DNA from: Paraflavitalea pollutisoli
GTDB lineage: Bacteria > Bacteroidota > Bacteroidia > Chitinophagales > Chitinophagaceae
Assembly: GCF_029360705.1 (NCBI RefSeq)
Contig: NZ_JARKMX010000004.1
Span: 558,001-622,000 of the forward strand
Direction: 5' to 3'
Length of the DNA: 64,000 nucleotides
The notes under the pieces were generated by a model. The model was not told the DNA's origin, did not search any database, and saw only the letters and a program-made list of their open reading frames with translations. A program made the position numbers and the translations under genes. Below are positions 20,352-25,571 of the stretch, one piece after another (the stretch's first letter is position 1; each line of letters starts with the position of its first letter).

Positions 20352-20444
20352 TGTTGTTCATTTCCTGTAGTGGCTGGAAAATGTAGTTCAGTTGCGGCAT
20401 ATAGCCCTGCTCGTCGCTATAACGCATAATAAATTTCTTATCAG

Positions 20445-20482
20445 TTTCTAATGCAGGCCCTCCCGATTAGGGGTTATTTTTG
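20445..20482 (+). promoter_or_regulatory. Promoter region of the OmpR-type regulator with TTTCTAAT
   Basis: TATTTTTG at 20475-20482 fits the -7 box, predicting a start near 20489 and a leader of about 47 nt. TTTCTAAT at 20445-20452 lies 22 bp upstream of it, near the -33 position, so a protein bound there could affect initiation. The spacing to a good TTTG is not met. Confidence 0.4.
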
Positions 20483-20535: not shown

Positions 20536-21210
20536 ATGAAGGTATTATTGGTTGAAGATGAGGCAGCTGTGGCAACAATGCTGAAAAAGGGTTTAAGTGA
20601 AAGTGGGTATGCGGTAACAGTTGCTCCTGATGGTCGATCGGGGCTTGATATGGGTACTTCCAGCTCTTACGATGTCATGATCCTCGACATTATGTTACCA
20701 GGAATCAATGGTCTGGAGTTGTGTAAAATGCTGCGTCGCGATGGTATCGATACACCGATTCTCATGCTGACAGCGCTGGGTACTACCGAAAACATCGTGG
20801 CTGGCCTCGACAGTGGCGCCGACGATTACCTGGTGAAGCCGTTCAAATTTGCCGAATTGGAAGCTCGCCTGCGTACCCTTAGCCGTCGCAAAGCTGGGGC
20901 CGCCAAAGCCAACGACCTCCTTCATATTGGAGATATAACCGTCAATACCGCCGCCAAGAATGTGATCCGCAACGGCAAAGAGATTGCGCTCACCTCTACC
21001 GAATACCGCTTGCTCGAATTCATGGTGCGCAACCGGGGCAGGGTTCTGTCACGTATCGAGTTGCTGGAAAATGTTTGGGGTATCGACTTCAATATGGGGA
21101 CCAATGTCGTAGATGTATACGTCAACTACCTTCGCAAGAAACTGGGCAACGAAAACGACCGCAAGCTGATACATACCGTGATCGGCATGGGGTATATTAT
21201 AAAAGAGTAA
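20536..21210 (+). CDS. OmpR/PhoB-family response regulator
   Basis: 224 residues: receiver domain 1-118 (acidic pocket Glu7-Asp8, phospho-acceptor Asp51, Lys in 'DYLVKPFKF') and OmpR-type winged helix 127-222 ('LTSTEYRLLEFMVRNRGRVLSRIELLENVWG', 'VDVYVNYLRKKLG', 'IHTVIGMGYIIKE'). The kinase gene starts 6 nt after its stop, so the two are a classic pair. A TAnnTTTG box at 20475 and a TTTCTAAT octamer at 20445 lie upstream. Target genes are not evident. Confidence 0.93.
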   Translation: MKVLLVEDEAAVATMLKKGLSESGYAVTVAPDGRSGLDMGTSSSYDVMILDIMLPGINGLELCKMLRRDGIDTPILMLTALGTTENIVAGLDSGADDYLVKPFKFAELEARLRTLSRRKAGAAKANDLLHIGDITVNTAAKNVIRNGKEIALTSTEYRLLEFMVRNRGRVLSRIELLENVWGIDFNMGTNVVDVYVNYLRKKLGNENDRKLIHTVIGMGYIIKE

Positions 21211-21216
21211 GTACCC

Positions 21217-22590
21217 ATGCGCATACAGATCAAGACGAGCTTGCTTTTTACCTTCATTACAGCCGGGATCATCCTGTTCCTGAGTCTGACCGTTTACTAT
21301 TTCGCCAGCCGTTTTACTTACAATGACTTCCTCAAACGGCTGGAGCTACGTGCCAGGATTACCGCCCGCATCCATTTCGAAGGTGACGAGTCCACCACGG
21401 CCGCCTTCCAGGAGCTTCGCGAGCAATACCTCTCGGCTCTCCCCAATGAAAGATTCTTTATTCTTCGATACGACAGTGTATCCGGATCGGTAAAGAATGA
21501 TACGGGGCCGCAATTGCCACAATCGTTCTATGAGGCCATTGTCGATAACAAGGGGCAGACGACCTTCAAGCTGGTAGATCATGTGCACTACGCCGGTATC
21601 CTTCATCGCGACCGGCATAATGATCATTTTCTGGTGATCAGTTCGGCCACCAATTTATACGGCGAAACCGTTATCAGCAACTTGCGGGAGATATTGGTTA
21701 TCACATTTATTACATCGGTTATTGTTGTTTTTACTGTTGGTATATTTTTCTCTCATAAGGTCTTCGCGCCGGTACGGCAGATCATGAACCAGGTGAAGGA
21801 CATCAGTGTCCAAAACCTGCATTTGCGGTTGAAAGAAGGGGATGGGAAAGATGAGCTGACGGAACTCTCCCGCACCTTCAACAACATGCTCGACCGGCTG
21901 GAAGCCTCCTTCGAAACCCAAAACAATTTCGTGAGCAATGCCTCCCATGAGTTCAGAACACCACTGACGTCTATCATCGGGGAAGCCGAAATCGCCTTGT
22001 CCAGGGAACGGTCGTGTGAGGAATATCAGCAAACCCTCCAGGTGATACAGCAGGAAGCGTCACGCCTGCAGCATGTGACCAAGGGGTTGCTGCAGTTGGC
22101 GCAGTCAGGTTTTGATGGCAAAAAACAGGATTGGGGTTTCATCCGGATCGATGAACTGATCATGAATGTCAAGCGCACTACCGATGAGATCGAACCCAAT
22201 AACCGCGTCAAGGTCTCTTTGCAGATGCCCGAACTGGAGAAGCTGGTGACCGTACAAGGCAATGAACACCTACTGCACCAGGCTTTGAGTAATATTGTAT
22301 TAAATGCTTGTAAATACTCTGATAATAAATCTGTTTTGCTTTCGCTAACTACCTCCGAAAATAGGATCATCATCGTGATAGTGGATGAGGGAATTGGCAT
22401 TCCGGCGGGCGAGGTGAAGTACATTTTTGATCCATTCTTCCGGGCTTCCAACACCAATCGATACGAGGGATATGGTATTGGATTGCCGCTGACCCATACG
22501 ATTATCCGGCTGCACAAAGGCGATATCAGGATCCAATCCCGGGAGGGGAAGGGGACAACGGTGATTGTCACATTACCGTCGATCTGTTGA
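21217..22590 (+). CDS. HAMP-domain sensor histidine kinase
   Basis: 457 residues. Two membrane helices (about 8-30 and 158-179) bracket a periplasmic sensor of about 125 residues; a HAMP linker (about 180-232) leads to the dimerisation domain with His244 in 'ASHEFRTPLTSI' and an HATPase with N-box 'ALSNIVLNACKYS', 'DEGIGIPAGEV' (G1), 'FRASNTNRYEGYGIGLPL' (F/G2). Partner of the regulator 6 nt upstream. The periplasmic domain has no recognised ligand motif; the order regulator-kinase is the OmpR-family norm. Confidence 0.92.
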   Translation: MRIQIKTSLLFTFITAGIILFLSLTVYYFASRFTYNDFLKRLELRARITARIHFEGDESTTAAFQELREQYLSALPNERFFILRYDSVSGSVKNDTGPQLPQSFYEAIVDNKGQTTFKLVDHVHYAGILHRDRHNDHFLVISSATNLYGETVISNLREILVITFITSVIVVFTVGIFFSHKVFAPVRQIMNQVKDISVQNLHLRLKEGDGKDELTELSRTFNNMLDRLEASFETQNNFVSNASHEFRTPLTSIIGEAEIALSRERSCEEYQQTLQVIQQEASRLQHVTKGLLQLAQSGFDGKKQDWGFIRIDELIMNVKRTTDEIEPNNRVKVSLQMPELEKLVTVQGNEHLLHQALSNIVLNACKYSDNKSVLLSLTTSENRIIIVIVDEGIGIPAGEVKYIFDPFFRASNTNRYEGYGIGLPLTHTIIRLHKGDIRIQSREGKGTTVIVTLPSIC

Positions 22591-23058
22591 TAAAACAACG
22601 CCAGGCGATTTTCTTCAAATCTATCAACTCACAATTGGGCCGAATGCCACCAGGCACCCAGCCTCTGCAATAATCAGCCGTTCAGGTATCCGGGCAATGA
22701 GAAAAGCCGCTTGGTAATGGTTTTATTATGTTAAGTAAGGAGTTGGTTGCAGACGGCCATCACAGTAATCTAAGAAAGCGATGAGAAAATGGTCGCATTA
22801 TGTGGTGCTCATATAAATAATTGATTATAAATTATATGTGGCCTATTTATATCAACGGGTAAAATTGAACCAACCTCCCTGTGTTTAAGTTTGCAGCCAA
22901 TGTCCGGGTAATCGCCACACATTTCTTATGCCGTTTTAATAACATTTATCTGTTTCTAATCGCCATCTCATTATCTTCTAATTGGTCCTTTAAGCCAGCC
23001 TAATGGCCGTGGTGCAATTTTGTAATCGAAAACCAATAATCGTTACAAAATAGATACC
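22591..23058. other. AT-rich intergenic region with promoter-like elements
   Basis: 468 bases without a gene. It is markedly AT-rich in the middle: an inverted repeat CATATAA (22810-22816) / TTATATG (22832-22838) flanks a run of A and T. TAAGTTTG at 22886-22893 fits a -7 box. TTTCTAAT at 22953-22960 and TCTAAT at 22977-22982 lie further down, and CAATTTTG at 23015-23022 with TTTA at 22989 is the closest promoter-like pair to the stress-protein gene. Confidence 0.5.
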
Positions 23059-23622
23059 ATGAGAAATGTATTGATCCCTACAGATTTTTCTGTAGCCTCT
23101 ATTGAACTGGTTGATAAAACAGCCCAAACATTGGAAGGTGAGTCGCTGAACATTATCCTGTTTCATGCTTTTGAGATTCCCTTTTTCGTGAGCGATGTAT
23201 TCGATCTCCGCGGAAAATTACCCTATGCCGAGTTGGTGACCGAGCCCTTCCGCAATGCCTGCAAGCGCGCAAAGCTGCAGTATCCCAAGACCATTCGCAG
23301 CATCGTCATTCGGCATCAATACGGCAGCACAGCCGCGGTTTTCCGAAACTTCGTTGATGCCAATGATATCGACCTCATTGTGTGCCCGGATTTCTTTGTA
23401 TTCCAGTCGGTCCATACCGGTAGTGTGAACCCGGTAGCCATGTTCCAGAAAGGCGGCGTACCGATGATGAAAGAGTTTAAGCTGAAGCGGAAAACAGCCG
23501 AAGAATCGGCCTCCAAACCAGCTGTGGCAGAACCCAGATTTGAAGAATACACCAAAGAAAAAAATTATGCTGTTAAAGAAGAACATCCCGTTCCGGTACA
23601 TATTCGGCAAAATACAGTATGA
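23059..23622 (+). CDS. Universal stress protein-like protein
   Basis: 187 residues. The first ~140 match the USP fold ('RNVLIPTDFSVASIELV' with the N-terminal Asp, then 'FRNFVDANDIDLIVCPDFFVF'), but there is only one domain and the nucleotide-binding Gly-rich GxxGxxS motif is not visible, so ATP binding is doubtful. A charged C-terminal tail of about 40 residues follows and its coding part overlaps the bestrophin start by 56 nt. Likely co-expressed with that channel. Function in stress is inferred from the family. Confidence 0.72.
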   Translation: MRNVLIPTDFSVASIELVDKTAQTLEGESLNIILFHAFEIPFFVSDVFDLRGKLPYAELVTEPFRNACKRAKLQYPKTIRSIVIRHQYGSTAAVFRNFVDANDIDLIVCPDFFVFQSVHTGSVNPVAMFQKGGVPMMKEFKLKRKTAEESASKPAVAEPRFEEYTKEKNYAVKEEHPVPVHIRQNTV

Positions 23623-24487
23623 GCTACTGGTCATACTCATCTATACCTCCATTATCGCGCTATTGCACGAATTTGACCGGGTATTGCCCATATCGATCCC
23701 GCTGGCCATTCCGGCCTTATTGGGTACTGTGATCTCCTTGCTCCTGGGTTTCCGGAGCAACCAGGCTTATGACCGCTGGTGGGAAGCCCGGCACATCTGG
23801 GGGGCCATCGTAAACGAATCACGCACCCTGGCCCGCCAAATCCTGACCTTCACGGATGTCGTGGAAGAGGGCGATGACGTCCAGTATTTTCGCGACCGGA
23901 TGATCCGCCGGCAGATCGCCTGGAATTACAGCCTGGGGCAAAGTCTGCGGGGGATGAGCCCGACACAAGGATTGGAGAAATACTTCAGTAAACGCGAGCT
24001 CGAGAGCCTCGGGAACTATACCAATGTGCCGTCGGCTATCCTGGAAATGCATGGTCGGGAGTTGAAAAAAGCCCTGGAAAATGGGTGGATCAACCGGTAC
24101 CAGCAGGTTGAACTGGACCGTACACTGACGCGGCTTTGTGATGCGATGGGCAAGTGTGAACGGATCAAGAATACGGTTTTCCCGCACACCTACAGCCTGT
24201 ACATTCATTTTGCCTTATTGCTGTTCATCAGCCTGCTGCCTTTCGGTGTGATCGAATATTTCGGGTTTCTGGAAATTCCTCTCGTAATGGCGGTTTCCGC
24301 GAGCTTTCTGCTGATCGAAAAGATGGCCATCCACCTGCAAGATCCGTTCGAAAACAAGCCCACGGATACACCCATGACGACCATTGCCCGTAACATTGAG
24401 CGTGACCTGCGACAGATGATGCGCGACAACGAGGGGCCAACTATCCAGGAGTTTGAGCGACCAGCAAGGGCCTTCTACGTATTATAA
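23567..24487 (+). CDS. Bestrophin-like (UPF0187) anion channel
   Basis: Start taken at the ATG 23567 (MLLKKNIPFRYIFGKIQYEL), which aligns with usual bestrophin N-termini; an upstream TTG would add nine residues. 306 residues with four membrane segments (about 20-42, 45-65, 210-232, 235-255) and the family blocks 'LLGFRSNQAYDRWWEARHIWGAIVNESR' and 'LQDPFENKPTDTPM'. Bacterial homologues form pentameric pores that conduct ions, cations in the one crystallised. Its first 56 nt overlap the stress-protein gene in another frame. Terminator at 24520. Confidence 0.9.
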   Translation: MLLKKNIPFRYIFGKIQYELLVILIYTSIIALLHEFDRVLPISIPLAIPALLGTVISLLLGFRSNQAYDRWWEARHIWGAIVNESRTLARQILTFTDVVEEGDDVQYFRDRMIRRQIAWNYSLGQSLRGMSPTQGLEKYFSKRELESLGNYTNVPSAILEMHGRELKKALENGWINRYQQVELDRTLTRLCDAMGKCERIKNTVFPHTYSLYIHFALLLFISLLPFGVIEYFGFLEIPLVMAVSASFLLIEKMAIHLQDPFENKPTDTPMTTIARNIERDLRQMMRDNEGPTIQEFERPARAFYVL

Positions 24488-24553: not shown

Positions 24554-24663
24554 CATATTCGGAGGTAGGGGCGTTTAAAAATCGTATACGCGATTCTCAG
24601 GGCCTTCATTTTTAAGCCATTTTGGGGGGATTTTTGGCTGATTTCCCCAAATTAGCCCTCCGC

Positions 24664-24672
24664 TGTGTATAA
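24664..24672 (-). promoter_or_regulatory. Isolated DnaA-box-like 9-mer
   Basis: TGTGTATAA on the plus strand is TTATACACA on the minus strand, a match to the TTATnCACA DnaA box. It lies 26 bp upstream of the first TCTAA motif. No second box was seen nearby, so on its own it does not define an origin. Confidence 0.25.
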
Positions 24673-24689
24673 GTAATAACATTCCTCTT

Positions 24690-25244
24690 TCTAATGTTAG
24701 TTAGTTTTGGTCTAAACGGCTCCCCATGCGCACCATTCAGATAGCTGAAGACACCTACAAATTCTTACAGTCTAAAGCAATTCCCTTTGAAGAGCAACCA
24801 GATGACACCATTAAAAGACTCCTGGGGGTAGGTGAGAAATCTATTGAAAATCAGACAACTATCAATAATTCTAATGATTCTAATGCTCTTAAAGGGGAGT
24901 TACCGACCGAAGAAAAGACCATAAACACTCAGCAGTCTAGCAGGCAAAGCCTGAGGGACTTCTATTCTAATATATTAGATAAGCATAACTCTAAATCAAT
25001 GGAAAGCGGGAGAGAATCTGCTCTAAACAACCACAATTCTAATAAATCATTAGAAAACCGCTCTAATCTCAGCCATTTATTAGAGGACAACTCTAATTCT
25101 AATCAATTAAATCATTCTAATTCTAAAGAGTTATCGCTAGAGGGTTCTAATTCTAAACTCCATTCATCTAACCTATTTGACTCTAATATTCCTGTAAATC
25201 AACCAGTAGTATCGTCTACGGAAAAGTATTCTAATATTTCTAAC
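24690..25244 (+). repeat. Dense array of TCTAA motifs through a promoter and coding region
   Basis: TCTAA starts at 24690, 24711, 24771, 24870, 24879, 24966, 24990, 25022, 25038, 25062, 25092, 25098, 25116, 25122, 25146, 25152, 25167, 25182, 25230 and 25239 (20 copies, 12 as TCTAAT). The complement TTAGA occurs at 24975, 25050 and 25080. At 24966-24979 the two orientations form a perfect 14-bp palindrome. Chance expectation for one strand is about 0.5 copy. Seventeen copies are in frame as Ser-Asn or Ser-Lys, one is out of frame and two are upstream of the gene. Confidence 0.85.
24702..24716 (+). promoter_or_regulatory. -7 box of the RHH/RAMA gene, flanked by TCTAA copies
   Basis: TAGTTTTG at 24702-24709 fits TAnnTTTG and predicts a start near 24716. 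One TCTAAT (24690) lies just upstream of the box and one TCTAAA (24711) at the start site, an arrangement expected for an autoregulated promoter if the product binds TCTAA. Confidence 0.4.
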
Positions 25245-25571
25245 TCAGGAGGAACAGCCAAAGGCAAAAAGAAACCTAAAACAAGTTTGCCAGAACTAGT
25301 CAGAGATGGCCTGGTGAAGGAGAATGAGCGGGTTTATTTCCAAAACTACCGGGGCGTCAAATTTCCGCAATACGAAGTGACGGTTGCCGACGGACAGCTT
25401 AAATGGAATGGCAACCGGTACTCGATGAGTGACCTGGCCAGCAAAATACTGAAGGACCTGGATCCAAAACAGGATAATGATTTCGTTCGTGGACCTGTTT
25501 TATGGGTGAATGCGGCCGGCAAAACAATGGCCGATCTCTGGGACATTTACCTGGCGAAAAAAGGAGTGTAG
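24726..25571 (+). CDS. RHH (SeqA-N-like) and RAMA-like domain protein with Ser/Asn linker
   Basis: 281 residues in three parts. Residues 1-36 (MRTIQIAEDTYKFLQSKA...DDTIKRLLG) read as a ribbon-helix-helix segment similar in spacing to the SeqA N-domain. Residues about 40-175 are disordered, rich in Ser and Asn, encoded by the TCTAA array. Residues about 187-277 (LPELVRDGLVKENERVYF, VTVADGQLKWNGNRYSMSDLASKIL, GPVLWVNAAGKTMADLWDIYL) resemble the RAMA domain, proposed to read modified DNA beside restriction and methylase modules. So a DNA-binding protein, probably multimeric. No methylase or nuclease gene is adjacent. The linker DNA is far more AT-rich than its neighbours. Domain calls are by eye. 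Confidence 0.65.
   Translation: MRTIQIAEDTYKFLQSKAIPFEEQPDDTIKRLLGVGEKSIENQTTINNSNDSNALKGELPTEEKTINTQQSSRQSLRDFYSNILDKHNSKSMESGRESALNNHNSNKSLENRSNLSHLLEDNSNSNQLNHSNSKELSLEGSNSKLHSSNLFDSNIPVNQPVVSSTEKYSNISNSGGTAKGKKKPKTSLPELVRDGLVKENERVYFQNYRGVKFPQYEVTVADGQLKWNGNRYSMSDLASKILKDLDPKQDNDFVRGPVLWVNAAGKTMADLWDIYLAKKGV

Follow-up and report, generated by a model that had tools for sequence, protein, structure and literature searches.

In phage lambda, the origin is made up of four long iterons, and the recognition sites of the O protein fall in the linker-coding part of its gene. The parS site lies inside spo0J, and the GATC clusters of SeqA are composed of short sites at variable spacing. Binding of regulators within coding sequence is common, as described in part of PMC9600179, and the 11-bp direct-repeat boxes of the OmpR family are documented for ArcA in the relevant passages of PMC3798270. 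With regard to the RAMA domain, the published structures treated in the section concerned of PMC9963953 contact the DNA backbone without base-specific contacts, and the data on 6mA reading given in parts of PMC9963953 and PMC11037411 are conflicting. Here, we analyzed a stretch of 64,000 nucleotides from Paraflavitalea pollutisoli (hereafter the window; genome G000), in which genes for a response regulator, a histidine kinase, a UspA-like protein and a bestrophin-like channel are followed by a gene carrying an array of the pentamer TCTAA (the array gene; Table 1). The bestrophin gene probably starts at 23567, with its listed ORF overlapping uspA and the orthologous ORF beginning at the matching Met.

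Table 1. Coordinates of the TCTAA array, the array gene and neighbouring features in the window.
Feature	Position	Strand	Remarks
11-bp direct repeat TTCTTATcagtTTCTAAT, presumed response-regulator box	20435..20452	+	upstream of response-regulator gene; in 4/4 genomes compared
OmpR-family response regulator gene	20536..21210	+	Response_reg 1.4e-29, Trans_reg_C 4.8e-26
Sensor histidine kinase gene	21217..22590	+	HATPase_c, HisKA, HAMP
Five 11-bp-spaced positions, presumed response-regulator boxes, read by eye	22954..23004	+	upstream of uspA; 4/4 genomes compared
UspA-like gene	23059..23622	+	PF00582 E=1.6e-4, just below cut-off
Bestrophin-like channel gene	23540..24487	+	PF25539 2.6e-65
Conserved 5' block	24585..24614	+	1 difference/30 bases vs. 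G003; single copy in window
DnaA-box-like TTATACACA	24664..24672	-	in 16-bp block identical in G003
TCTAA array	24690..25243	.	20 TCTAA (+), 3 TTAGA at 24975, 25050, 25080
Promoter TCTAA pair, 21 bp apart	24690..24715	+	flank TAGTTTTG
Array gene	24726..25568	+	281 aa; SeqA_N-like, long linker, RAMA
SeqA_N-like N-terminal segment, residues 1-35	24726..24830	+	presumed multimerisation part; weak PF17206 match
Low-complexity linker, about residues 36-171	24831..25238	+	DNA carries most of array; helix predicted 67-88
RAMA domain, residues 172-279	25239..25562	+	sequence and fold match

A recount of the 20 TCTAA and three TTAGA copies in the array gene and its promoter (24690-25243) returned the numbers and positions given in a preliminary description of this DNA, and the case is now stronger than first noted. 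Codon listing agreed with that description as well: 17 copies are read in frame as TCT-AAY or TCT-AAA, giving Ser-Asn or Ser-Lys, the copy at 25022 is out of frame (GCT CTA AAC), the three inverted copies read TTA-GAN, and two precede the ATG, while the perfect palindrome reported at 24966-24979, within the array, is present as TCTAATATATTAGA. An orthologue of the array gene (61% identical) was found in another species of the genus (G003, record named Paraflavitalea sp. CAU 1676) and carries 25 sites, comprising 21 TCTAA and four TTAGA copies. The pentamer is directly followed by A or T at 21/23 sites in the window genome and 23/25 sites in the orthologue, a preference that is weak when AAT is tested against AAC (p 0.09 and 0.016, respectively). 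The motif is exact in P. pollutisoli, with none of the 15 one-mismatch pentamers enriched over within-gene synonymous shuffles; among the same 15 in the orthologue, only TCTTA was marginal (4 vs. 1.5, p=0.04, uncorrected). Same-strand spacings of up to 45 bp include neither 11 nor 22 in either species, and 11-bp phasing is absent from both.

A chance origin of the cluster is excluded. On the contig that contains the window (C12; 645,287 bp), the array holds 23 sites in 600 bp against an expectation of 0.2, the next-densest 600 bp holds three, and no other pentamer forms as extreme a cluster (Poisson score, reverse complements pooled). The densest interval in 140 kb of another contig of the same genome holds four sites, and in 400 kb of G003 the orthologue (25 sites) is followed by an interval with four. 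Searching the 8.76-Mb genome for three TCTAA copies with gaps of up to 30 gave 11 matches in the forward direction, every one of them within the array gene, and none in reverse, compared to 3 and 3 matches for the reversed-pattern control; in G003, 10/12 matches fell inside the orthologue. No cluster of like density was seen elsewhere in the P. pollutisoli genome by pattern, or by density in 645 kb and 140 kb of that genome and 400 kb of G003.

Codon bias as the cause of the array is largely excluded. In a background set of crude ORFs of at least 200 codons (from C12 and 400 kb of G003:C17), Ser before Asn or Lys is encoded by TCT in 44/1020 dipeptides in P. pollutisoli and 27/615 in G003, compared to 17/18 in the array gene and 18/19 in the orthologue (binomial tails of 1e-22 and 7e-24). 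Ser in other contexts is TCT in 4/17 and 0/16 cases in these two genes, respectively, and Leu before Asp or Glu is TTA in 3/5 and 4/6. When synonymous codons were shuffled within the gene with the protein fixed, the observed total was reached in 2/5000 shuffles for the array gene and 0/5000 for the orthologue. Over the whole window, TCTAA is scarcer than a dinucleotide model predicts (45 observed vs. 86.6 expected). Restriction-type avoidance of the pentamer was considered and rejected, as observed/expected ratios of 0.75-0.79 in the carriers of the array gene and 0.82 in one non-carrier (G002) show no clear difference, and the scarcity is not peculiar to carriers.

DNA-level selection on the array is well supported by comparison with the orthologue. 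With one known orthologue, and an aligner that may be attracted by the repeats themselves, 18/23 sites in the window are common to both species at aligned positions, including both promoter copies, the copy in the SeqA_N-like part, the out-of-frame copy and all three inverted copies; the sites at 24870, 25116, 25122, 25167 and 25182 (5/23) have no aligned counterpart. The stretch 24966-25102 aligns gap-free and has 10 shared sites inside it. Pentamers at linker sites are identical in 15/20 cases, compared to 15/239 for other linker pentamers (p=2e-12), and the bases agree at 89/100 positions inside sites versus 137/290 elsewhere in the linker. TCTAA is retained despite an exchange of Asn and Lys at four or more of the shared sites, and one of the shared sites is not in frame. 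In both species, the inverted copies are separated from a TCTAA by 9, 12 and 18 bases, and this preserved spacing favours double-stranded DNA over RNA as the level of selection. Sites of the array are thus placed within the coding sequence of the gene itself and kept at the DNA level, making this a clean example of a linker apparently shaped by selection for DNA sites and not for protein.

These results bear on two checks proposed in the preliminary description, namely aligning orthologues, where drifting linker residues with kept sites would favour selection on DNA, and counting TCTAA across the genome. Both came out favourably, and together the orthologue comparison and the uniqueness of the density support its claim of a DNA site cluster inside coding sequence. 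Its rejection of slippage is also largely borne out. That the array is a functionless product of TCTAAT microsatellite slippage and drift is scarcely credible: four tandem TCTAAT copies do occur in G003 and three tandem pairs in P. pollutisoli, but most sites are dispersed among unrelated flanks, some are out of frame, inverted or non-coding, the sites are kept in G003 while their flanks drift, and Tandem Repeats Finder, run at its default score, does not report an array at this place. Selection at the level of RNA or translation, acting on UCUAA in the mRNA, on rare codons or on hidden stops, seems very improbable, although 20/23 copies are on the sense strand and TCT, TTA and CTA are rare codons. 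Such selection is at odds with the conservation of the inverted copies (3/3, with spacing) and promoter copies (2/2), and with codon choice, given that TCA, which is about as rare as TCT, precedes Asn or Lys in neither gene and that TCT in the G003 gene occurs only before AA.

The Bacteroidetes -7 element has the consensus TAnnTTTG, and a sequence resembling it, TAGTTTTG, lies at 24702-24709 between the two promoter TCTAA sites. Both sites and TAGTTTTG are conserved in G003, and the presence of two promoter sites suggests autorepression. The DnaA-box-like sequence upstream was noticed after the fact and, as a frequent word (TTATNCACA occurs 26 times in 1.19 Mb of the P. pollutisoli genome), can be taken as a lead only; a check for proximity to oriC found C12 and 400 kb of G003:C17 to be free of DnaA-box clusters. 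We also took an Rfam match to RsaE (23.2 of 79 bits, E 0.31), which is far below the gathering score, as chance.

The N-terminus of the array-gene product is weakly supported as SeqA_N-like. PF17206 (SeqA_N) matched with E=0.0094 in the window protein and 0.0028 in the orthologue, below gathering in both, and the NCBIfam SeqA model with 8e-4 (19.4 bits vs. a cut-off of 185) and 1.2e-5, respectively. The AlphaFold model (mean pLDDT 53) is of low quality except in the RAMA part, with pLDDT <50 at residues 27-70, 87-147 and 149-185 and about 54-65 in the helix at 67-88, and the N-terminal fold is not readable from it. The C-terminus has the RAMA fold and resembles CcrM and MPND in fold, with sequence matches below the Pfam gathering cut-off in both carriers. 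By Foldseek alone, CcrM ranked first (E 0.16), and searching the PDB with the product sequence yielded no significant match, the single hit having E 0.4. With E values of up to 1 admitted, the Pfam and NCBIfam scans returned only SeqA-type, RAMA and one weak unrelated match, with no ParB or other partition domain, and the Pfam scan at E up to 1 found no SeqA C-terminal hemimethylated-GATC-binding domain, the C-terminus being RAMA.

The SeqA_N-RAMA relatives examined are short. One of them (L224) is above the cut-off for both Pfam families and has the same two-domain order as the array protein; it matched eight plasmid records, six of them over at least 80% of its length. The short SeqA_N-RAMA proteins that we viewed (L224 and L246-L249) are about 130-150 aa long, are annotated as DUF2924/DUF4357 or hypothetical, and occur on both chromosomes and plasmids; the Rhizobium gene (L247) lies divergent from a type I restriction-modification methylase/S-subunit pair. 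Their linker spans roughly 10-30 residues by eye, compared to about 136 in the array protein. At five short-relative loci (4/8 plasmid matches and G642), no comparable array was present, the best cluster scores being -7.3 for A-rich words (L250) and -5.6 for AGTCA (L246), both somewhat beyond their own control windows, versus -28.1 for the array in the window. The absence of both the long linker and a comparable array from the relatives examined suggests that linker and array go together. At L246 7500-8700, which holds a Variovorax SeqA_N-RAMA gene, AGTCA is mildly clustered (9 vs. 1.1 expected), slightly beyond 18 control windows.

The array gene itself is present in two of five genomes of the genus (P. 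pollutisoli and G003). An orthologue search returned 2/119 genomes, including the window's own, and a C-terminal profile search of the family returned 3/294, again including its own, with the third match being a different protein. At the order level, 1/396 genomes matched, namely P. pollutisoli itself (G003 was by inference outside this sample), and a search of a genome contig collection gave one locus, in G003's own record. No orthologue was found in plasmids (1e-5), phages (1e-2) or viral contigs. SeqA_N matched in 34/294 genomes of the family at E up to 0.1, none above the cut-off, and the best of these matches was rejected because its ORF runs antisense to one of 641 aa. Downstream of the bestrophin gene, G001 and G002 have a small ORF and the TPR-type gene, with no array gene in between, and the best bestrophin match in G004 is only 42% identical. 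Comparing carriers and non-carriers at the locus suggests a gain of the gene in one lineage, or its loss outside that lineage, at a fixed position.

We propose, with a probability of about 0.46, that the array is a cluster of recognition sites read by the gene's own product; binding, multimerisation and autorepression are what we infer from these sequences. TCTAA, mostly followed by A or T, would be the recognition site, embedded in the linker-coding DNA and the promoter and held there by selection on DNA. The SeqA_N-like segments would multimerise, the long linker would let the RAMA domains reach irregularly spaced sites in either orientation, and the array would nucleate a nucleoprotein complex. 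Such a complex would cover both promoter sites, shutting down or tuning expression of the array gene, and might in addition cover the boxes of the neighbouring two-component operon, which contain TCTAAT. This reading is favoured by the irregular spacing and mixed orientation of the sites, which suit DNA-binding domains on long linkers attached to a multimerising N-terminus, by the conservation of the sites, the exact pentamer, the SeqA_N-like and RAMA parts and the co-occurrence of linker and array, and by the two sites flanking the -7-like element in both species. It is weakened by the backbone-only contacts of RAMA in the structures covered by that section of PMC9963953, by SeqA_N and RAMA matches that lie under gathering cut-offs in both carriers, and by the 5/23 unshared sites, an alignment possibly drawn by repeats, the weak A/T preference and the single orthologue.

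It is further weakened by the neighbouring response regulator, whose boxes have the same core and which may be the reader. The main rival, which we regard as unlikely but serious, is that the array acts as a sponge or control region for this OmpR-family regulator, by titration or by blocking transcription. The 11-bp TTCTAAT-type repeats upstream of the response-regulator gene and uspA are presumed to be autoregulated OmpR-family boxes, which are 11-bp direct repeats according to the cited part of PMC3798270. Both repeats were found in all four genomes compared, including two without the array gene, and the run upstream of uspA reads TTCTAAT, ATCTCAT, TTCTAAT, CCTTTAA (weak) and GCCTAAT. The boxes have the TCTAAT core in common with the array and lie only 1.7-4.3 kb from it, so that a coincidence of motifs is unlikely, and comparable pairs of boxes lie on either side of a second two-component operon in 5/5 genomes (genes viewed in three). 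Against this, the array lacks 11-bp phasing, occurs in both orientations and keeps its pentamer exact, whereas the response-regulator boxes vary (TTCTTAT, ATCTCAT, GCCTAAT) and are in most cases bordered by T on either side. The missing phasing counts only partly against the regulator, given that in-frame sites can lie only multiples of three apart, which forbids spacings of 11 and 22.

Tandem TCTAA pairs with 11-bp spacing are present in all five genomes, and an outward pair of pairs about 2.1-2.2 kb apart is found in each. The second two-component operon is bracketed by outward TCTAATnnnnTTCTAA pairs at L160 4737 and 6959 (G000:C15:972737, 974959), with like pairs in G001-G004; on one side in P. 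pollutisoli, four 11-bp repeats stand in a row. Its genes were viewed by eye in 3/5 genomes, with the kinase seen in 3/3 and the regulator in 2/3, the third being hidden by an overlapping ORF. Outside the array, four close TCTAA pairs lie on the minus strand within 3.2 kb at G000:C6:722791-725952. A paired-TCTAA regulon was rejected: pairs within 30 bp number 88 in the P. pollutisoli genome, 16 of them in the array, versus 170 for the reversed-pattern control, and the apparent 11-bp excess consists of the pairs present in all five genomes, carriers or not, some of the inspected ones being situated at two-component operons.

We consider it improbable that the array is read by a third factor requiring this exact pentamer, for instance a nucleoid protein or an adenine methyltransferase, with the RAMA protein possibly reading the resulting mark. 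Such a factor would fit the all-or-none pentamer and the similarity in fold between this RAMA domain and that of CcrM, but PF01555 methyltransferases, the only type searched for, number one in P. pollutisoli and none in G003, and avoidance of TCTAA is not carrier-specific (0.75-0.79 in carriers vs. 0.82 in G002). The lack of a PF01555 adenine methyltransferase common to both carriers also weakens reading by the gene's own product, which may in addition depend on adenine methylation.

Returning to the own product as reader, we tentatively suggest a further step, namely that the linker may have evolved chiefly as a carrier of the gene's own TCTAA sites, with its residues as a by-product, and that the protein may condense the array into a self-regulating nucleoprotein centre that overlaps the neighbour's regulon and is perhaps tied to replication via the DnaA box. 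If the product reads the array, this would give a sequence-specific role to a RAMA domain, which would be new judging from the parts of PMC9963953 and PMC11037411 concerned, and would mean that a SeqA-like multimeriser can carry a second, unrelated DNA-reading module. Reading by the neighbouring response regulator would instead make the array a natural decoy hidden in coding sequence.

The preliminary description had compared the array with SeqA-read GATC clusters and with parS arrays. Its embedded DNA site cluster stands, but membership in either system does not, and the rival reader suggested by the neighbour's TTCTAAT boxes, which it does not mention, was missed. As a parS-type system the locus fails because the product has no ParB or known partition domain (Pfam/NCBIfam, E up to 1). 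The SeqA comparison holds in part, in that the N-terminus is weakly SeqA_N-like, with a short relative above the cut-off, the sites form a short-site cluster and a DnaA-box-like sequence lies nearby; however, the protein ends in RAMA rather than in the DNA-binding domain of E. coli SeqA, and TCTAA is asymmetric, compared to the palindromic GATC. The protein differs from CcrM and MPND in having no methyltransferase or peptidase part, and the array differs from OmpR/PhoB boxes in lacking 11-bp phasing and box degeneracy, while having the TCTAAT core in common with the neighbour's boxes. We know of no other array of about twenty exact pentamers kept in the drifting linker of a chromosomal gene, and among the matches listed, the open-access literature held no study of a TCTAA array or a SeqA_N-RAMA protein. 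A close likeness in layout is to phage lambda, where ori lies within gene O (the part of PMC6022878 concerned) and the recognition sites of a DNA-binding protein lie inside its own gene, as is proposed for the array gene; however, lambda ori is a phage origin, whereas the array consists of 23 dispersed pentamers in both orientations in a chromosomal gene with no replication initiator beside it. That a protein's sites can lie inside its own gene was already known; what would be new is about twenty exact pentamers in the drifting linker of a chromosomal gene.
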